A DNA stretch of 64,000 nucleotides from an uncultured Pontibacter sp. (GTDB lineage: Bacteria > Bacteroidota > Bacteroidia > Cytophagales > Hymenobacteraceae). A model generated the notes under the pieces. It was not told the DNA's origin and did no database searches. It saw only the letters and a list, made by a program, of their open reading frames with translations. This document shows positions 51,095-61,715 of this stretch, one piece after another. The position numbers were made by a program, and so were the translations under genes. Each line of letters starts with the position of its first letter. The first letter of the stretch is position 1. Where the stretch lies: positions 62,001 to 126,000 of the forward strand of contig NZ_CANLZM010000008.1 of NCBI RefSeq assembly GCF_947495565.1, written 5' to 3'.

Positions 51095-51098
51095 CACC

Positions 51099-51815
51099 AT
51101 GAAGAAAACCGGCACTTTATACTTGATACCTACCATACTTGCAGAAAACACCCAAGACCAGGTTATTTCGCCGCAAGTAAAAGAGACGGTGCAGCACCTT
51201 ACTTATTTTATAGTAGAAAATCTGCGCACAGCCCGCCGCTACGTAAAAAGCATTTGCCCGGAGCTGGTGATAGAGCAGCTAAAGTTCGTGCAGGTAGACA
51301 AGGATGCTTCTCCGGCACAGGTGCAGGCCTCGCTGAAACCGCTGCTGGAGCAAGGCATAGATGCCGGTATCATCTCGGAGGCCGGCTGTCCCGGCGTGGC
51401 AGACCCCGGCGCTGAGGTAGTAAAGTATGCCCACCAGAAAAGTATAAAGGTAGTGCCCTTTGCAGGTCCGTCGGCTATACTTCTGAGTTTAATGGCCAGC
51501 GGCTTCAGCGGGCAGCAGTTCTGCTTCCACGGCTACCTGCCCATCGAGAAAGGCCCACGGCTGCAGGCGCTGCGCCAACTCGAGAAGGAGATGCAGCAGC
51601 GCAACCAGACGCAGATCTTTATGGAAACGCCCTACCGCAACAACAAGCTGCTCGAAGACCTGCTCGCCACCCTGCACCCCGACACAAAACTCTGCATCGC
51701 CGCCAACATCACCTCCCCGGAGCACGAGTTCATCCAGACCAGAAGTATAAGCCAGTGGCGCGGCAAGCTGCCGGACATACACAAGCAGCCGGCGGTGTTT
51801 CTAATTTATAGGTAA
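51099..51815 (+). CDS. SAM-dependent methyltransferase, RsmI/tetrapyrrole-methylase fold
   Basis: A 238-residue member of the tetrapyrrole methylase superfamily, which includes the 16S rRNA 2'-O-methyltransferase RsmI. Start ATG 51099 (MKKTGTLYLIPTIL); an in-frame upstream Met at 51060 is placed before the promoter box and is rejected. Motifs: GIISEAGCPGVADPGAEVV near residue 100 (SAM-site loop), then PFAGPSAILLSLMASGFSG. The family in Bacteroidota is shorter than RsmI and lacks its C-terminal domain, so the rRNA target is uncertain. Confidence 0.88.
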   Translation: MKKTGTLYLIPTILAENTQDQVISPQVKETVQHLTYFIVENLRTARRYVKSICPELVIEQLKFVQVDKDASPAQVQASLKPLLEQGIDAGIISEAGCPGVADPGAEVVKYAHQKSIKVVPFAGPSAILLSLMASGFSGQQFCFHGYLPIEKGPRLQALRQLEKEMQQRNQTQIFMETPYRNNKLLEDLLATLHPDTKLCIAANITSPEHEFIQTRSISQWRGKLPDIHKQPAVFLIYR

Positions 51816-51971: not shown

Positions 51972-53528
51972 TTAGTTAACATCCCACCAAGGCCTCACAC
52001 CTAGGCTGTTCTTGCCACCAATTCTCTGTACAGCATCAGCATAGTTAGTGCCGTTCAGAGAAGCTTCTGTTACAGGGTAGCTCATACGGAATGGCACCAA
52101 GGTTACATCCGGATCAACTGATCCATCGGCTGGCTCTACAAAGATTTCCTCACCTGTGTAAGGGTCTTCAAACTCTAAACGAAGGCGCTCGAACCAAGAC
52201 TGGATACCCTGGCCATACATCGCTATCCATTTCTGAGAGCCGATCAGGTCAAGAGCTGTCTCCAAATCAGGAGCTACCATAGCGGTACGAGACTCACTGT
52301 AAGGCACCTCTGCCAGGTAGGCCTCATATTGTTCCTGAGTTAAACCTGCATCATCGAAAGACGCTTTGATACCAGCCTCATAATGCTCTTTAGCAGTCAT
52401 AGGAGTGCCAGCTATACCACGTGCAGCAATTTCTGCCAGCATGAACTGAACCTCAGCGTAGCTTAGGATATAAGTCGGAGCAGTTTCACCGATAACATAA
52501 TCGCCTGGTAAGCTTACAAGTTTAGCATCTCCGTTTGAGTTACCATTACCTGCATCTAGACCATAAACCTCACCTACATACTGCTGATTACCGTTAGCAT
52601 CTAAGATTGGCGTGAAGCTTGAGCCCAGCGGGTTGCCTGTTCCAAGAGGTCGGGCAAACACAGTTACACGTGGGTCATCATACCTCTGCAGGTAATCAAT
52701 AAACGGCTCAGAAACAGAGAAGTCGATTCTAGTCTTATAAGCCTGTGCAAGCGGGTTGTTGTTAGGCGCACCAGCTACCCATGCAAACTTAGCGCTCTCG
52801 TCGTTAGATGAGATAAAGCCCGCATCGCTGTTCAGAGCTTTTGTGATAGCCTCAGTAGCTGCACTTTGGTTAGCGTCATACATACGAAGTGCGATACGCA
52901 GGCGAAGAGAGTTTGCAAACTTCTTCCACATCATCACGTCTCCGCCGTAAATCACATCACCAGCCTGGAAGCTTGGCTTCGACTCATCCAGAATAGCGAT
53001 TTGCTCATCCAGCGTGTTTAAAACACCCATATAGATTTCTTCGCCTGAATCATACTTTGGTGTTACATTTTCTGTGCTCAATGCCTCAGAATATGGAACC
53101 GGCCCACCGTAGATATCAGAAAGAGTCTGGAATGTCATCGCCTTCATAATTTCTGCGATGGCGATACGGTTTTCATAACCGTTTAACTGATTCTCTGCTT
53201 CTATTTCCTGAGCAGTGGTTAACTCTCTTAATACATCAGCATAGAAAGTGTTCCACATCGTTTGGTTTACACCCTCACGAATCTGGTAGCGGCTTTCGTC
53301 TGTGTACTGCGTAGAAGACCAATACTGCGCATAGTACATACCCATACGGGCGTTGTTCCATGCATCTCCTATGTTTGTGGCAAAGTTGTACTGTGCAGTA
53401 GCCATTAACTGCGCAGACGTAGCATTTGCCGGTTGGTTAGGGCTAATGTTCATCTCCTCGAAGTCTTCTGTACAAGACGCCATAGAGAACAATGCTGCCC
53501 CGAGCAATAGCTTATTATATAACTTCAT
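51972..53528 (-). CDS. SusD/RagB-like outer-membrane lipoprotein
   Basis: Nutrient-binding lid of a SusCD import pair. A 518-residue lipoprotein with signal LLLGAALFSMASC (Cys19) and the SusD start TEDFEEMNISPNQPANATSA, characteristic of the SusD-like 2 subgroup. ETAPTYILSYAEVQFMLAEI and IGSQKWIAMYGQGIQSWFE are the C-terminal family motifs, and it ends in VRPWWDVN. It follows SusC by about 32 bases. No glycoside hydrolase, peptidase or regulator lies in the immediate neighbourhood, so the substrate cannot be inferred. Confidence 0.93.
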   Translation of the reverse strand: MKLYNKLLLGAALFSMASCTEDFEEMNISPNQPANATSAQLMATAQYNFATNIGDAWNNARMGMYYAQYWSSTQYTDESRYQIREGVNQTMWNTFYADVLRELTTAQEIEAENQLNGYENRIAIAEIMKAMTFQTLSDIYGGPVPYSEALSTENVTPKYDSGEEIYMGVLNTLDEQIAILDESKPSFQAGDVIYGGDVMMWKKFANSLRLRIALRMYDANQSAATEAITKALNSDAGFISSNDESAKFAWVAGAPNNNPLAQAYKTRIDFSVSEPFIDYLQRYDDPRVTVFARPLGTGNPLGSSFTPILDANGNQQYVGEVYGLDAGNGNSNGDAKLVSLPGDYVIGETAPTYILSYAEVQFMLAEIAARGIAGTPMTAKEHYEAGIKASFDDAGLTQEQYEAYLAEVPYSESRTAMVAPDLETALDLIGSQKWIAMYGQGIQSWFERLRLEFEDPYTGEEIFVEPADGSVDPDVTLVPFRMSYPVTEASLNGTNYADAVQRIGGKNSLGVRPWWDVN

Positions 53529-53560: not shown

Positions 53561-56500
53561 TTACAGTCCCAGCGTTAATGTGAATCCATAAGAACGAACG
53601 GACGGTAACGCACCACCTTCAATACCCTGCACGTTTGTGATAGAGTTTGTGATGTTTGATGGATCAACGTGATCAGAGTTTGACTGGATCAGCCATAGGT
53701 TTCTGCCTACAAATGCAAGTCTCACATTGTTGAAAGGAGTCTTCTCCACTAAGCTAGTTGGCAGGCTGTAGCCTAAGCTAGCCTCACGCAGGTAGATGTA
53801 GCTTGCATCAACAATATCAGCCGCATGCACTCTGTAGCCACCGTTAGCATAGAAGTAAGTTTCTGCACCAATAACTGTAGTATTTTCAGTTCCGTCAGCA
53901 AGTACACCTGGAGTTACCATTCCTTCTTCACGGATGTCACCTTCAGCTGTTCCTTTTAGCATACCTGAGTAGTTACCCCACATTTGCGTAGTAGAGAAGA
54001 AGTCACCGCCTTTCTGGAAGTCAACCAGTGCTGAAAGGCTCACGCCTTTGTAACGGAATGTGTTTGTTACACCACCTGTAAAGTCAGGCAGTACAGATCC
54101 GATCACTTTTTGCTCATCAGAACGTGCATACACACCGCTTGCTAGTACAATTTTTCTACCCTGATCGTCATACTTGTAGTCATAACCTACGATAGATCCA
54201 AATGACTCACCTTCACGAGCCTGCAGCTGAACTGCAAACGGAGCGTTTGTGATAACCATTGTTTTCTGGTCGTCTGTCAGCTTAACGATTTGGTTTTCGT
54301 TCTTAGCCCAGCTAACATTAACATCCCAGCTGAAATCGTTTGTTCTTACCGGAGTACCGTACAGGTTAACTTCAACACCTTTGTTTTCTACTTCACCAGC
54401 GTTGATGTATCTGTAAGTGAAGCCTGTAGCGGCTGAAAGGCTAAGTGGAATAATCTGGTTCTCAGTCTTTCTGTTGTAGTAAGTAGCATTCAAACCTAAT
54501 CTGTCGTCGAATACACGCCACTCAGTACCAAATTCATATTCAGTTGAGATCTCTGGCTTCAGCACTGAGTTAGGCAGTGTGTTTGGCACAGAAACTCTTG
54601 ACTCTGAACCAAAAGGCATGTTCAACTGGTAAGTCAGGATAGTGTTGTACGGGTCAGTATCGTTACCAACCTGTGCTACGGCAGCACGAACTTTAGCCAT
54701 GTTCAACCAAGAAGCATCAATCAGATCTGAGAATACATAAGAAAGAGATGCAGCTGGGTAGAAGTATGAGTTCTCATCAGCAGGAAGTGTTGATGACCAG
54801 TCGTTACGCGCGCTCAGGTCTAAGAATAGCTGATCCTGGAAACCTAAGGAAGCACTAGCGAACACAGAGTTGATTTGCTTCTCTGTCTTGCTGTCAACGA
54901 TAGAAGGACGGCCAACTGATGCACCCAGGTTGTATACTTCTGAGCTCAATCCATCCACAGTAGAACCTGCAAATACGTTACGAGTACGCGTCATTCTGTT
55001 CACACCTGCAAAAGCGTTCAATGAGAATACATCAGAAAGGTCTTTGTTGAAGTTCAATAAACCTTGGATGTTGTTCTCCATAAAGTCGATCTTGTACAGA
55101 GTGTAATCAGAAATACCTTGAGAACCTGGAGCGATACGCTCTTCCTGCGTTTCAGAATATGTATCCGTAGACACTCTTACATCAGCGCTTAGGTAATCAG
55201 TAAGCTTATAGTTAGCGTTTACGTTACCGAAGATACGATCTCTACCGTCGTTCTGGTAGTTCTTGTAACGAACCCAGTAAGGGTTGTCAGAGTATTTAGG
55301 AGTTGGGTTGTCCCAAGAAGTACGGTTCCAAGTCAGCTGTGTGCCGTCTGGCAACATGTAAGTTTCTTGTCTCTCGATGTCTAGTTGGCGCTGTCCCCAC
55401 TGCGTAAACTGCTGCAGTACGTTGTTTCCGTCGTAACCAGTACCTGGGCGGCCTTTCGCCTCGTGCGTTACATAGTTCGCGCTGGCAGATACGCTAAGCT
55501 TCTCTGTTACATTGTAACCACCGTTAAAGCTTAGGTTATGGCGTACAAGCTCAGAGTTTGGAAGTATAAAGTTCTGATCCAGATTTGAGTAAGACAAACG
55601 GAAAGAACCTTTGTCATTAGAGCCGTCTACAGAGACAGAGTTTGTTAGAGTAGTACCAGTCTCGAAGAAGTCACGGATGTTGTCTGGCTGAGCTTCCCAT
55701 CTAGCTAACTCACCGAAGTTAGGGTTGCCAAGCTCTTTGTCCCAGCTCCAGTAAGGACGGTACAGTTGTCCTTCAAATGCAGGACCCCAAGATTCATCCA
55801 CATCGTAATCAGGAAGCAGGTCATAGCTGCCTTTTCCGTCACCGTCGTCATATGCACCTTGTCTTCCTTCTGGAAATGCTTCTGGGTTTTCATCAAAGTA
55901 TAGTTTAGTAAAGCCGAAGCCGCCACCATACTTATTCTGGTATTCAGGCAGTTTATACACACGGTCTAAAGTTAGACCAAGTGAGTAAGTAACGCCAATG
56001 CCACCACCTTCTCTGTTGCCTTTTTTAGTAGTGATAACGATTACACCGTTAGCACCACGGCTACCGTAAAGCGATGTAGCAGCAGCACCTTTCAGTACAG
56101 TTACTTCAGCAATGTCATTAGGGTTAATATCCTGGATGGCACTACCGTAGTCATAACCGCCGCCACCGCGTTGCTGATCAGAGCTGTTAGAGTTTGAGTT
56201 TTCGATTGGAACACCATCTACCACAAAAAGGGCGTTGTTGTTACCACTGATGGAGCTAACACCACGCATAGTAACTCTTGCAGAGCCACCCATGGCGCCT
56301 GAGTTTGTACCTACCTGAACACCAGCAATTCTACCTGAAAGGGAGTTTACTACGTTCGTCTCGCGTACTTGGCTCAGTTCATCACCACTCACCGTCTGAG
56401 ATGAGTAACCGATAGACTTTTCTTCTCTTGCAATACCAAGGGCTGTTACTACAACCTCGCTAAGCTGCTGCGTATTAACAGGCAACCCAACATTAACAGT

Positions 56501-56770
56501 ATTGTTAGAGCCAATATTGCGCTCTACTGATTGGTAACCAATAAAACTGAAAACCAGTGTATTGTTACCTTCAGGAACATTAATTGAATAACTACCGTCT
56601 GCTGAAGTAGCAGTACCAACGGTTGTACCTTTTACCAGAACGGTAACGCCCGGTAACGGCTGGCTGGTAGCAGCATCCGTCACTTTACCAGTGATAGCCC
56701 TTACCTGTGCCATGGCCTGATGCAACAGGGCCGTCACAAGCAAGAAGCTCAGGAATAGAATTTTCTTCAT
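53561..56770 (-). CDS. SusC/RagA-family TonB-linked outer-membrane transporter
   Basis: A 1069-residue TonB-dependent transporter forming the barrel of the SusCD pair. Signal MKKILFLSFLLVTALLHQAM ends at AMAQ; residues 24-100 are a carboxypeptidase D-regulatory-like domain (KGTTVGTATSADGSYSINVP); a TonB box lies before the plug (EVVVTALGI near 109); the plug has VPIENSNSNS and KGAAATSLYGSRGANGVIVI; the remainder is a 22-strand barrel ending SYGFTLTLGL. It needs the TonB-ExbBD system, for which genes occur at 25-29 kb. Confidence 0.95.
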   Translation of the reverse strand: MKKILFLSFLLVTALLHQAMAQVRAITGKVTDAATSQPLPGVTVLVKGTTVGTATSADGSYSINVPEGNNTLVFSFIGYQSVERNIGSNNTVNVGLPVNTQQLSEVVVTALGIAREEKSIGYSSQTVSGDELSQVRETNVVNSLSGRIAGVQVGTNSGAMGGSARVTMRGVSSISGNNNALFVVDGVPIENSNSNSSDQQRGGGGYDYGSAIQDINPNDIAEVTVLKGAAATSLYGSRGANGVIVITTKKGNREGGGIGVTYSLGLTLDRVYKLPEYQNKYGGGFGFTKLYFDENPEAFPEGRQGAYDDGDGKGSYDLLPDYDVDESWGPAFEGQLYRPYWSWDKELGNPNFGELARWEAQPDNIRDFFETGTTLTNSVSVDGSNDKGSFRLSYSNLDQNFILPNSELVRHNLSFNGGYNVTEKLSVSASANYVTHEAKGRPGTGYDGNNVLQQFTQWGQRQLDIERQETYMLPDGTQLTWNRTSWDNPTPKYSDNPYWVRYKNYQNDGRDRIFGNVNANYKLTDYLSADVRVSTDTYSETQEERIAPGSQGISDYTLYKIDFMENNIQGLLNFNKDLSDVFSLNAFAGVNRMTRTRNVFAGSTVDGLSSEVYNLGASVGRPSIVDSKTEKQINSVFASASLGFQDQLFLDLSARNDWSSTLPADENSYFYPAASLSYVFSDLIDASWLNMAKVRAAVAQVGNDTDPYNTILTYQLNMPFGSESRVSVPNTLPNSVLKPEISTEYEFGTEWRVFDDRLGLNATYYNRKTENQIIPLSLSAATGFTYRYINAGEVENKGVEVNLYGTPVRTNDFSWDVNVSWAKNENQIVKLTDDQKTMVITNAPFAVQLQAREGESFGSIVGYDYKYDDQGRKIVLASGVYARSDEQKVIGSVLPDFTGGVTNTFRYKGVSLSALVDFQKGGDFFSTTQMWGNYSGMLKGTAEGDIREEGMVTPGVLADGTENTTVIGAETYFYANGGYRVHAADIVDASYIYLREASLGYSLPTSLVEKTPFNNVRLAFVGRNLWLIQSNSDHVDPSNITNSITNVQGIEGGALPSVRSYGFTLTLGL

Positions 56771-57512
56771 TGTGTGTTAGTTTAAAGTGAGAGTTTAGGT
56801 TAAAAATTATCAAAAACGAAGGTTTAAAAACCTTAGTGGGAAATAATCTGAGAGAAAAAAGCTATACGCCGTTATTCTGCTTCTGCAGCAGTTGCACATT
56901 AAGCTTTTGAGAATACACAAAGCACCTCCACCCTGCATAACAATATGCAGGAAAACAGCCACACCTTAGCAGCGTGATGAATTTATGAGACTTTTATTTT
57001 TGAAGGAGGAGAAGGTGCAAAACACCGTGATGGCACTAAAGTAAAGAGTAAAGAAGTAATCATAAATTGTTTGTTTAAGGTGAGATACAGTTCAACAAGT
57101 TTAACAAAAACCTGCCGTATTAACAAATAATTAGTTTAACTTTTAAAGTATAAAGAGAGCTTTCAAAATTATATATGATATCTCAACAAAACTTAACCAA
57201 CTGATTATCAGAATAATTTAACCTAACCCACAACATCCGTGAAAATCTTCTTCAAAAAAGCATTTTTAATTAAGTTATGCCACTGAAAATGCGCCACAAT
57301 GCGTATTATACGTGCTGCATAATTTTAGTTGTTGCATTTTACAAGGGTTAATCTACAAATAAAATATCAATAAAACCAAATTATAAATTAAATAATCAAC
57401 ATATACAACATGATTACAAAAGGATCTTATAAACCAAGAGCCTTTTGTAATATTAAAACAATTAATAGTTAATTGAAATCTAGTTTCATAGGTGACTGGA
57501 TCTCACAAGCAG
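56771..57512. other. 742-base leader/spacer upstream of SusC
   Basis: AT-rich region with no gene. It holds an inverted repeat AAGGTTT-TT-AAACCTT (56819-56834) about 50 bases before the SusC start, and the perfect 10-bp pair TTACAAAAGG (57414-57423) and CCTTTTGTAA (57441-57450), possibly the old terminator of the SusD remnant. The bases just upstream of both SusC starts share AGTGTGTTAG-like sequence (minus strand CTCACTTTAAACTAACACA). Confidence 0.45.
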
Positions 57513-58080
57513 CTACATCACATCCCAGAAAAGGCGTGTTGAGCTTTCATCTCCTCCAATGGCTGCCGCCGCTGCTGCACGGTTAGCAGGGTTAAGTGTT
57601 TGCTCGTTAATAGGATAAATCATCCTGGTAGGTATGGTTAACTCACCTGCTCCTTCTACAGCCGGGGGTTGTAAGTCTGGGGCATCTGTCTTCTCCACTC
57701 CAGCCATGCTTCGTTGCCACGGTTGTAAAGAGCTATCCATTTCTGGGTCCCGATTTTTTCTCGCCAATCACCAGAAGCTATATTGCAGTAAACTTCAGGC
57801 TGAGCCAGGTAATTCTGAGCTTCTGCTTCTGTACCTCCTCAATAAGTGATAGAAGCAGTAATGGCAGCATTATAATGCTCTTCTGCAGTCCCCTCTACAC
57901 CAAAGCCCCGCTCCACAGCCTCTGCCAGCAAAAACTCAACCTCTGAGTAATCCAGCAATATTGCCTCAAAGTTAGGGTCTGCTATTAGTGGGCTCACAGT
58001 AGAGAATGCAGCGAAGTTATTCGGGAAGCCATACTCTCCCCCAATAAACTCACCGTCAACATCGCTGAAATAATACTGCC
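57513..58080 (-). pseudogene. SusD-like pseudogene, C-terminal remnant
   Basis: Only the C-terminal part of a SusD protein remains. Read from 58080, it gives QYYFSDVDGEFIGGEYG, NFAAFSTVSP, LLDYSEVEFLLAEAVERG and HYNAAITASITY, then an in-frame TGA (57841-57839) where Trp (TGG) is expected, then GGTEAEAQNYLAQPEVYCN and IGTQKWIALYNRGNEAWLEW. A frameshift near 57660 moves the last part (GELTIPTRMIYPINEQTLNP to RLFWDVM) to another frame. The first half is absent, and the fragment is joined directly to the SusC remnant. Confidence 0.85.
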
Positions 58081-59376
58081 TACAAACGCAGACACCTCAA
58101 AACCTTTGTTCTCTACCTCACCGGCATTCACAAACCTGCTGGAGTAACCGCTTGCCGACGATATGGTAACGGGAATGATCTGATCTTCTGTGTTTGATTT
58201 ATACCAGGTAAAATCGAACCCGAAGAGACTGTTAAAGAATTCGGCTTCAAAGCTTTTTTGCCGCTCAGGCTGCAGAGCTTGGTTGTTTTTAGTGTTAGGG
58301 ATAGAGAAGAGAGCAATAGACCCAAAGCCTGTTGGCTTGTCATACACATCATATATACTTAACGGTGGCGCATCATTGCCTACTTCTGCATAATTTACGC
58401 TAACCTTCCCTAGCGAGAGCCACTCCATATCAATTACATTAGAAAAGAGGAAATTGGCTGCGGCAGCAGGATAGAAGTATGTATTATCGCTTTCGGACAA
58501 GGTGGTAGACTTGTCCGAAAGCGCTGACAGCTCCAGAAACAGCACTTCCTTATAGCCAAAATTGGCATTCGCGAAGACACCGTCCACCCCTCTTCTCCAC
58601 TCATCTTCCACGGGAGGCTTTACAGGGCTGACCGAGTTAGAAAGCGAGTACAGCCCCGGCACAACCAAACCTACGTTAGTGGATGCCCTAACTGATCTGG
58701 AACGCTCTCGGCGGAGGTTGGAACCAAGCAGACCAGAGAAGCTAATATCCTCCGTGATAACTTTATTGAAAGTTTGCTGAGCCGTTGTGTTGTTATTGGC
58801 ATTGCTCGCCGGTACGCCGTCTATCACGAAAAGCGCCTGGTTATTTCCGGTAATAGAGGAGTAACCACGGATAACCACGTTGGTAGAGCCACCCATGGTG
58901 TTGTTGGTTCTAACGTCGAGGCCGGCTACTTTACCGGATAGCGTATTCACAAAATCGCTGCTTCTTGTGCGGGTAATCTGATCGCCGCTTACTTCCTATG
59001 CAGAGTAAGCAAGCTCGTTGCGGCTGCGCTCTATGCCCAACGCAGTTACCACTACTTCCTGCAGCTGCTCTGCATCTGTAGCCAGTGCTACATCAATTGT
59101 ATTGGCATTTCCGATATTTCGCTCTACGATTGATTGGTAGCTGATAAAGCTAAAGGCCAGCGTATTGCTACCTTCAGGAAATTGTATGTCATAGCTACCG
59201 TCTGCTGATGTAGCAGTACCAACGGTAGTGCCTTTTACCAGGACAGTAACGCCCGGTGGCGGTTGGTTGGTAGCAACATCTGTTTCTCTACCAGTTATTG
59301 GCCTTACCTGCGCCATACTCTGATGCAATTGCAGTATGGCCACAAGCAAAAAGCTTGTAAATAGAACCCTCTTCAT
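58081..59376 (-). pseudogene. SusC-like pseudogene, internally deleted and fused to SusD remnant
   Basis: The start is intact: MKRVLFTSFLLVAILQLHQS, regulatory-like domain KGTTVGTATSADGSYDIQF and EVVVTALGIERSRN. A TAG at 58998-58996 interrupts the frame after NELAYSA; the reading frame continues with EVSGDQITRTR, so it is a nonsense change (Gln codon likely). After the plug motif VPASNANNNTTAQQ the sequence jumps to a barrel segment NKVITEDISFSGLLG, an in-frame deletion of several hundred residues relative to the intact SusC at 53561. It ends near 58081 at VENKGFEVSAF and runs into SusD. Parallel order to the intact pair shows an old tandem duplication. Confidence 0.88.
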
Positions 59377-59494
59377 TATGTGTTAGTTTAAAGTGAGACT
59401 CTAATATTAGCTATATACAAGTTTAAAGTTTGTTAAGCCTATACTTACAATAAAGCTGTACTCGCCTGCCTTAACACACGTGAAGAATAACTCC

Positions 59495-59543
59495 ATAAAC
59501 AGCCAAAGGCCGGGATCTAAAATTCCGGCCTTTGGCTGTTTAT
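59495..59543. terminator. 19-bp perfect hairpin after feoB
   Basis: Arms ATAAACAGCCAAAGGCCGG (59495-59513) and its reverse complement (59525-59543), 11-base loop. It lies 19 bases past the feoB stop on the minus strand and separates it from the SusC pseudogene. Confidence 0.75.
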
Positions 59544-59561
59544 ACTTTGTAAATTAATGCT

Positions 59562-61715
59562 CTAGCTGAATAATTGGTAGGTGATAAAAGCCATGACGTA
59601 AGCCAAGCCGCTCATGTAAATCAATTGCGCTGCAGGCCAGGTCCAGCTTTTTGTTTCGCGGCGGACAATGGCCAGGGTGCTCACGCATTGCATGGCAAAA
59701 AGGTAGAAGATCATGAGCGAGAAGCTGCGGGCAGGCGTAAAGAATGGGTCGCCGTTGGCGTCTTTCTCCGACATCAGCTTTTCCTTTATGGTGGTCACGT
59801 TTTCCTCCTCCCCTATACTATAGATAGTAGACATGGTGCCTACAAATACCTCGCGGGCAGCAAAAGAGGTAAGCAAAGCAATGCCAATCTTCCAATCGTA
59901 ACCAAGCGGCCTGATAACAGGCTCTATAGTGCGGCCAACCATTCCGGCGTAAGAAGACTCCAACTGGTGGGAGGCAATCCTGTTCTCTGTCTGCACCTCT
60001 GTTAGACCTTCTGCGCGTGCCTCTGCAAGCGCCTGCTGTTCTGCCTGCTCAAAACTGTTGCCGGGGCCATAAGATGCCAGCACCCAAAGTATAATCGAGA
60101 TCGCTACAATCACTTTACCGGCTTCAAACACAAATGCTTTTACCTTCTCGATGATTGTAAGGCCCACATTTTTCCAGCGCGGCATTTTATAGGTCGGGAA
60201 CTCCATGATAAAGTAGCTGCGCTCCCGGGCCTTCAGTATAATTTTCAGCAGCAAAGCTGATAGTATGGCAGCCAGAAACCCGATCAGGTAAAGCGCCATT
60301 AGCACAATGCCTTGCAGGTTCAGGAAACCAAAGTAGTACTTCTCCGGCACCACCAGCGCAATCAGTACAGTGTATACCGGAATGCGGGCTGAGCAGCTCA
60401 TCAGCGGCGTCACAAAGATGGTGATCATCCGGTCCTTCCAGTTCTCGATGGTTCTTGCCGACATCACGGCTGGCACGGCACAGGCCACGCCCGAGATAAG
60501 CGGCACCACGCTTTTACCGTTCAGCCCGAACTTGCGCATGATCTTGTCCATCATGAAGGTAACTCGCGCCATATAGCCTGTCTCCTCCAGCACCGCAATA
60601 AAAGCGAAGAGTATGGCGATCTGCGGCACAAAAACTAGGATACCTCCCAAACCGGCAATCACACCTTCGGTAAGCAGGTTAACCAGCGGCCCGCTAAAAT
60701 TTTCCTGGATCAGCGTATTCAGGCCGGCGATACCGCCATCAATTAGATCCATCGGGTAACTGGCCCAGGCAAAGATGGCCTGGAAGATCATGAAAAGTAT
60801 ACCGAAAAAGATAAGGTAGCCAAACACCTTGTGCGTCAGTATCTGATCGAGGCGGTTGCTGAACTTCTCATCTCTCTCCGCCTTCTCCACGCGCACGGCA
60901 TCGAGTAGCAGCTCGTTAATGCGGGTATAGCGCCCAATAGTTTCGTCGGCCTGCTGTGCATTGGATTTGAAACCGGCACTCTCCAGCTGCTCTCCCAACC
61001 AAGCCATGTCCTCCTCATTCAGGAATTTCAGGCTTTTATACTGGTGCGCAAACTGCAGCGCCAGATAATCGGTGCTGAGGCCAAATCGGGTTTTTATACT
61101 TTGGAGCAGCGGCTGTAACTGCGTTGGGATATCATAAAATGGCTTCTCCGGTGCGCTCAGGTGCTGCGTCATCACAATTTTGAGGGCAGCAACGCCTATG
61201 CCTTTCCGGGCATTCATTGGTATAACCGGCACGCCCAGCTCACGCTGCAGTGCTGCCACATCAATCTTCACGCCCTCCTGCTCGGCCACATCCACCATGT
61301 TCAGGGCCAGCACCGCCGGCAGTTGCAGGTCGGCCAGCTGGGTAAACAACAGCAGGTTGCGCTTCAGGTTTGAGGCGTCGGCGGTAACAATTACCAGATC
61401 CGGGAAGTGCTTGGAAGTCGGGTCGTAGAGCAAGTCGGTTATCACCCGCTCGTCAAGGGATTTAGGATACAGGCTATAAGTACCCGGCAGATCGATGATC
61501 TCAGCCCGGATAGCTGGGGTAAGCTGGCTATAGCCGGTTTTCTTATCAACTGTAACCCCCGGAAAATTACCTACCTTTTGGTTTAGGCCGGTAAGCTGGT
61601 TAAAAAGCGATGTTTTGCCAGAGTTCGGATTGCCGATAAGGGCGATCTTTACCTCCTCCGGCTTGGCAGATACACGCTCTGCCGGTTTTATTTCTGGTTG
61701 GGTAGCTACAGGCAT
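59562..61715 (-). CDS. feoB: Ferrous iron transporter FeoB
   Basis: Inner-membrane Fe(II) uptake. The 717 residues contain an N-terminal G domain (GNPNSGKT at 28-35, DLPGTYSLYP, NMVDVAEQEG) and a helical membrane part with the gate-type motifs CAVPAVMSARTIENWKDRM and CSARIPVYTVLIALVVP plus SFAAREVFVGTMSTIY. It follows feoA by 9 bases, a normal FeoAB pair; there is no feoC. Iron supply fits the ferrochelatase in the same window, though no Fur box was seen. Confidence 0.96.
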   Translation of the reverse strand: MPVATQPEIKPAERVSAKPEEVKIALIGNPNSGKTSLFNQLTGLNQKVGNFPGVTVDKKTGYSQLTPAIRAEIIDLPGTYSLYPKSLDERVITDLLYDPTSKHFPDLVIVTADASNLKRNLLLFTQLADLQLPAVLALNMVDVAEQEGVKIDVAALQRELGVPVIPMNARKGIGVAALKIVMTQHLSAPEKPFYDIPTQLQPLLQSIKTRFGLSTDYLALQFAHQYKSLKFLNEEDMAWLGEQLESAGFKSNAQQADETIGRYTRINELLLDAVRVEKAERDEKFSNRLDQILTHKVFGYLIFFGILFMIFQAIFAWASYPMDLIDGGIAGLNTLIQENFSGPLVNLLTEGVIAGLGGILVFVPQIAILFAFIAVLEETGYMARVTFMMDKIMRKFGLNGKSVVPLISGVACAVPAVMSARTIENWKDRMITIFVTPLMSCSARIPVYTVLIALVVPEKYYFGFLNLQGIVLMALYLIGFLAAILSALLLKIILKARERSYFIMEFPTYKMPRWKNVGLTIIEKVKAFVFEAGKVIVAISIILWVLASYGPGNSFEQAEQQALAEARAEGLTEVQTENRIASHQLESSYAGMVGRTIEPVIRPLGYDWKIGIALLTSFAAREVFVGTMSTIYSIGEEENVTTIKEKLMSEKDANGDPFFTPARSFSLMIFYLFAMQCVSTLAIVRRETKSWTWPAAQLIYMSGLAYVMAFITYQLFS

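Follow-up and report, generated by a model that had tools for sequence, protein, structure and literature searches.

Where a broken SusC/SusD gene pair lies directly beside an intact one, is it a failed copy of its neighbor or what is left of a different transporter? The question is raised by a locus of an uncultured Pontibacter genome (4.52 Mb, 44 contigs), of which we analyzed a stretch of 64,000 nucleotides (here, the window; G000:C8:62001-126000). On the minus strand of the window, a feoB-like gene is followed by a SusC/SusD remnant, an intact SusC gene, and an intact SusD gene, after which an RsmI-like gene lies on the plus strand (Table 1). From their sequences, we take the two flanking genes to be feoB and rsmI. 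With the intact SusC as query, nine of the 14 named loci were those of Pontibacter, the best being P. chinhatensis LP51 (90%). In a comparison with plasmids, the matches (seven records, 60 to 80% identity) covered at most 7% of the query. Judging from sequence comparison, the remnant is very probably the degraded leftover of an independent SusC/SusD pair of long standing, decayed in place.

Table 1. Features of the SusC/SusD site and its borders (positions are those of the window)
Feature	Position	Strand	Basis or remark
feoB-like gene at the upstream border of the variable SusC/SusD site	59562..61715	-	name tentative, from sequence
Remnant leader, 185 bp	59377..59561	-	between feoB and the remnant
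Remnant SusC, 5' part with CarbopepD_reg_2	58996..59376	-	PF13715 (E 2.8e-18); ends at TAG 58998-58996
Remnant SusC, plug portion ending at deletion joint 1	58771..58995	-	alignment with open relatives
Remnant SusC, barrel piece (~residues 554-787 of G023_C1)	58082..58770	-	ends at joint 2 (58082/58081)
Remnant SusD, C-terminal piece (~190 residues)	57513..58081	-	PF12771 (E 1.5e-44)
Possible short ORF (26 codons) in the leader of the intact SusC	56983..57063	-	inside the conserved block; putative coding
Intact neighboring SusC (1069 aa), other barrel class	53561..56770	-	domain matches, barrel tree
Intact neighboring SusD (518 aa)	51972..53528	-	PF12771
RsmI-like gene, other edge of the SusC/SusD site	51096..51815	+	name tentative, from sequence

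Remnant and neighbor alike resemble the SusC/SusD (RagA/RagB) importers, which take up nutrients through the outer membrane of Bacteroidota, in the succession of a CarbopepD_reg_2 domain, a plug, and a TonB barrel, followed by a SusD-like_2 gene. The pieces of the remnant still have the makeup of a TonB-dependent receptor in which CarbopepD_reg and plug domains make up the N-terminal part (in addition to PF13715, PF07715 with an E value of 2.7e-6 and PF00593 with 2.9e-12), a signal peptide can be recognized by eye in the 5' part of its SusC, and SusD stands directly downstream of SusC, the PF12771 match having been obtained on a read-through of two frames. The remnant differs from these importers in that most of the barrel is gone and the N-terminal part of SusD (the first ~290 residues) has been deleted.

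The lesions were identified by reading the frames directly and then aligning them with relatives that have open frames. A preliminary description of this DNA had recognized a SusC/SusD pseudogene that lies beside an intact pair and decayed through several separate lesions, and this holds up against the open relatives. The in-frame deletion that it had noticed inside SusC measures 1059 bp (353 codons) relative to two congeners, G023 and G016; relative to a third, G021, it is split into two gaps, likewise in frame, that add up to 1092 bp. The joint lies at 58770-58775, its position varying with the reference. Both nonsense codons that it had named are borne out: the TAG in SusC stands in a column that is Gln in 36 of 41 SusC sequences, and the TGA in SusD (57841-57839) in one that is Trp in 28 of 40 SusD sequences (one has a gap). 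As had been described, a second deletion (~1.73 kb; 1732, 1772, and 1730 bp relative to G023, G016, and G021, respectively) joins the SusC barrel to a C-terminal SusD piece; it begins at about residue 787 of SusC and ends at about residue 290 of SusD. The two pieces are in different frames, so that the DNA is fused, the reading frame is not, and there is no readable fusion protein. The frameshift in the SusD piece is also present, as a 1-bp deletion at 57687-57690, although the position first given for it (57660) is off by about 30 bp. A 12-bp in-frame gap in the barrel piece at about 58248 (58245-58253) may be natural length variation. No microhomology could be established at the deletion joints, and among the matches listed (from this genome and 49 other genomes of the genus), none outside the genome itself crosses either joint by more than a few bases.

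With two stops, a frameshift, and two kilobase deletions, the remnant has no complete open frames for a transporter. The draft state of the assembly, with its 44 contigs, speaks for an artefact of assembly or sequencing, but such an origin is extremely unlikely: the two stops, the 1-bp deletion, and both kilobase deletions fall within one stretch, and the window runs unbroken for 4.6 kb on one side and for more than 57 kb on the other. Sequencing error in particular is improbable because kilobase deletions occur here together with two stops and a frameshift.

The stretch after feoB was read in 24 congeners (G001 to G024), and rsmI was reached in 16 of them. Each has one or more SusC/SusD pairs after feoB, up to three. 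The comparison set comprised 41 SusC sequences of more than 900 aa and 40 SusD sequences of more than 350 aa, including the intact pair of the genome studied here; shorter pieces at the ends of the fetched stretches were left out. In a tblastn search with this set against the remnant, the first pair of G023 came out on top. The barrel piece is 87% identical (200/229) to the SusC of that pair (G023_C1) and 39% identical (89/227) to the neighboring SusC, and the SusD piece is 82% identical (154/188) to its SusD (G023_D1) and 32% identical (60/187) to the neighboring SusD. Likewise, the plug of the remnant (residues 113 to 200) shares 91 to 93% with six members of its class and 52% with the neighboring SusC. 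In the barrel tree, the remnant groups with G023_C1 and G016_C1 (support 95/95) as part of a 20-row class (100/98), whereas the neighboring SusC belongs to a separate class of 6 rows (100/100). Forcing the two together on the barrel costs 301 log units (p-AU 3.4e-6). The SusD tree, made by a quick method, shows the same two classes.

These results bear on the origin proposed in the preliminary description, which had read the locus as the record of a tandem duplication of the intact pair followed by stepwise loss. At its 5' end, the remnant does look like such a copy. It has the same order as the neighbor, as had been stated, and also the same orientation; its start-site motif and first ~300 bp are 77 to 78% identical to those of the neighboring SusC; and the identity amounts to 80% over residues 1 to 60 and to 74% (83/112) over residues 1 to 112, which on its own would fit a copy of the neighbor. 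However, the AU test and the identities of the barrel and SusD pieces show that the neighbor is not the closest relative along the whole length; duplication of the neighbor is rejected for the barrel by the AU test against a common clade and for SusD by identity and tree, and congeners have open frames of both classes. It is thus very unlikely that the remnant is a lineage-specific tandem duplicate of the neighboring pair that subsequently decayed, and duplication of the intact neighbor is not supported as its origin; it could survive for the N-terminal ~112 residues only. The earlier reading was misled because the N-terminal domain (residues 1 to 112) resembles the neighbor and does not follow the barrel class. 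A far older duplication of SusC/SusD genes in general may have occurred. For similar loci, the lesson is that a strong 5' match of adjoining SusC genes can mimic a recent duplication even though the barrels are old and distinct.

The two different barrel and SusD classes, together with open members of the remnant's class in congeners, thus argue for an old, distinct pair that probably decayed in place. Open copies of this class number 19 and are found in 16 of the 24 congeners, in 15 of which one is first after feoB. Two of the congeners, G022 and G023, carry the two classes one after the other as in the window. Both pairs are also present, again in this order, in P. chinhatensis LP51 (outside the 24 congeners), where the matched stretches have no internal stops, the leader is 731 bp long, and ~3.6 kb of unread sequence lies between the second pair and rsmI; P. 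oryzae has the second class only, between feoB and rsmI. Open orthologues of the remnant therefore exist at the same place in relatives. The preliminary description had named an intact version that is not orthologous as evidence against its account; the open versions that we found are orthologous to the remnant, not to the neighbor. Besides itself, the remnant matches in the DNA of its own genome only the 5' end of the neighboring SusC, which is not surpassed by any other match there, and two short stretches.

In three congeners (G009, G010, and G017; loci L036, L033, and L034), a pair adjoins another one of its own barrel class, with 65 to 85% identity in plug and barrel. This arrangement is closer to the tandem one that the preliminary description had in mind.

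In this lineage, the first pair has lost most of its leader, 353 codons of SusC, and 1.7 kb between the SusC barrel and the interior of SusD, besides gaining the two stops and the frameshift. The remnant is predicted to be unable to make a transporter, and uptake at the feoB-rsmI site would now rest on the intact second pair, which is of another SusC/SusD class. Presumably, the first pair had lost its usefulness, the loss was recent, and nothing is made from the remnant. Of 52 remnant-specific changes (15, 9, and 28 by codon position), 24 are non-synonymous, compared with 57 of 165 pooled in six relatives (Fisher p = 0.14), which range from 2/18 to 22/44 (G016); strong relaxation of constraint in the remnant was not detected by this comparison. 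That more than half of the changes are synonymous is in keeping with a recent loss, after the gene had been functional during most of the time since it became separate, although the test is a weak one. As such, the remnant is an ordinary kind of gene loss. It shares the stops, the frameshift, the deletions, and the open orthologues at the same place with ordinary pseudogenes that decayed in place, and the sole difference is that two genes are joined by one deletion.

The N-terminal domain remains to be accounted for. Residues 1 to 112 of the remnant, which resemble the neighboring SusC to the extent given above, are about equally close to the best members of the remnant's own class (73 to 79%); the ten best for this segment do not include G023_C1, which is the closest relative as far as the barrel is concerned. 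The neighboring SusC is 85 to 92% identical in residues 1 to 60, but only 30 to 41% in the barrel piece, to eight chosen SusC sequences of other classes, and G023_C1 is 62 to 75% identical in residues 1 to 60, versus 72 to 90% in barrel segments, to six members of its own class. There is also counterevidence: identity in residues 1 to 60 is 97 to 98% between the neighboring SusC and the two members of its class that are nearest to it, as class would predict, and pairs of different classes within one genome vary widely in this segment (55 to 85%).

The N-terminal domain data reject a single clade for the 20-row class (p-AU 0.004) and likewise for the 6-row class (p-AU 0.013), both classes having been taken from the barrel tree. 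Among 36 labeled rows of 42 (six were left out), the barrel class changes nine times on the N-terminal domain tree; the barrel tree needs four changes, a number that follows from the way in which the classes were drawn. The domain is short, and 8 of the 39 inner branches of its tree are strongly supported. The simplest reading of these conflicting histories suggests recombination between the N-terminal domain and the plug; given the short domain and the few supported branches, unequal rates or constraint are a possible cause as well. If the mismatch between N-terminal domain and barrel holds, SusC genes would swap their 5' ends independently of substrate specificity. A recent gene conversion of the 5' end within the genome was considered and found unsupported, the neighboring SusC being nearer in residues 1 to 60 to other congeners (87 to 88% to the first-pair SusC of G012, G014, and G021) than to the remnant (80%).

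SusC/SusD shufflons occur in Bacteroides, and recombination at the 5' ends of SusC genes, which is one reading here too, would be a point of likeness; the difference is that the mixing here is seen between species and not as a switch. By analogy, the remnant might be a silent cassette that serves the intact pair as a donor in recombination or phase variation, and an N-terminal domain that does not follow the barrel class would agree with some exchange at the site. Such a role is nevertheless very improbable: the stops and the frameshift sit in the very parts that a donor would supply, the pieces beyond the N-terminal domain are 39 to 52% identical to the neighboring protein, and between feoB and rsmI the window has no ORF of at least 60 aa free of overlap with the two pairs. 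Keeping to decay in place as the origin of the remnant, we tentatively suggest, as a possibility somewhat short of even, that the feoB-rsmI site is an exchange site at which a 5' module with the mRNA leader, the signal peptide, and the N-terminal domain recombines separately from a specificity module that consists of the barrel and SusD; the remnant would then be a discarded specificity module that still has the shared 5' module. If so, new transporter classes would come under the resident control leader. Among the titles listed in literature searches, none was on this locus.

The leaders differ in length and content. In 23 congeners, the first SusC is preceded by a leader of 493 to 1178 bp, compared with 185 bp for the remnant; in one congener, the distance is 2656 bp, with another ORF intervening. 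The leader of the remnant keeps the start-site motif and a terminator-like hairpin (by eye) and has no counterpart of a block conserved upstream of the intact SusC. The preliminary description had matched the 5' leaders of the two pairs, which is correct only for the ~20 bp immediately ahead of the start codon and the ~300 bp with which the coding sequence begins, whereas the upstream block, common to the intact SusC and its G023 counterpart, is absent from the remnant. Rfam gave no match in the window at gathering scores; two microRNA families that appeared in the leader by E value (0.011 and 0.036) are far below these scores and were taken as chance.

A conserved string, TCTCACCTTAAA, occurs in 18 of 41 SusC leaders at the feoB-rsmI site. 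In 25 leaders chosen by eye, SusC is preceded, at a distance of 293 to 522 nt, by a short ORF of 15 to 30 codons. Its pN/pS is 0.54 in frame versus 0.74 and 1.15 in the other frames among seven chosen rows, and 0.85 versus 0.75 and 0.92 among four other chosen rows; these values hint weakly at purifying selection on the short ORF, and for the first group alone. The conserved string also occurs in a longer form, TCTCACCTTAAACAAA, of which 15 of the 29 genomes compared (this genome and congeners; loci L080 to L106) contain 27 exact copies, with none for the reversed control. Eleven of the 27 copies precede a short ORF, as in the window, and 16 lie elsewhere, so the string is not confined to SusC leaders. 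Several of these 16 copies lie just after terminator-like hairpins (by eye). GAAGGAGGTGAT shows no strong enrichment genome-wide (50 places versus 32 for the reversed control in the 29 genomes).

Another box, AAGGAGGTGA, stands 135 to 152 nt upstream of the start of SusC in 10 of the 41 leaders (those of G003, G005, G006, G008, G009, G010, G011, G015, G016, and G017), compared with an average of 0.005 leaders in 200 single-base shuffles; it is absent from the leader of the intact SusC in the window. The ten leaders belong to four barrel classes, and on the trees they require two changes for the N-terminal domain and four for the barrel. As a spaced pattern, the box has 22 matches in 50 genomes of the genus, 15 of which were judged by eye to be this leader, versus nine for the reversed control. 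In 15 aligned leaders of this kind, RNAalifold gave a consensus fold of six pairs, none with covariation. The box presumably matches the complement of the 16S rRNA 3' end, and no close start codon follows it in the leaders read. Bacteroidia ribosomes in general are reported to fail to recognize such sequences, the notable exception being rpsU and, in some orders, also rpsR (PMC9976891). Because these ribosomes largely ignore Shine-Dalgarno sequences, a conserved box of this kind far from any start codon is odd.
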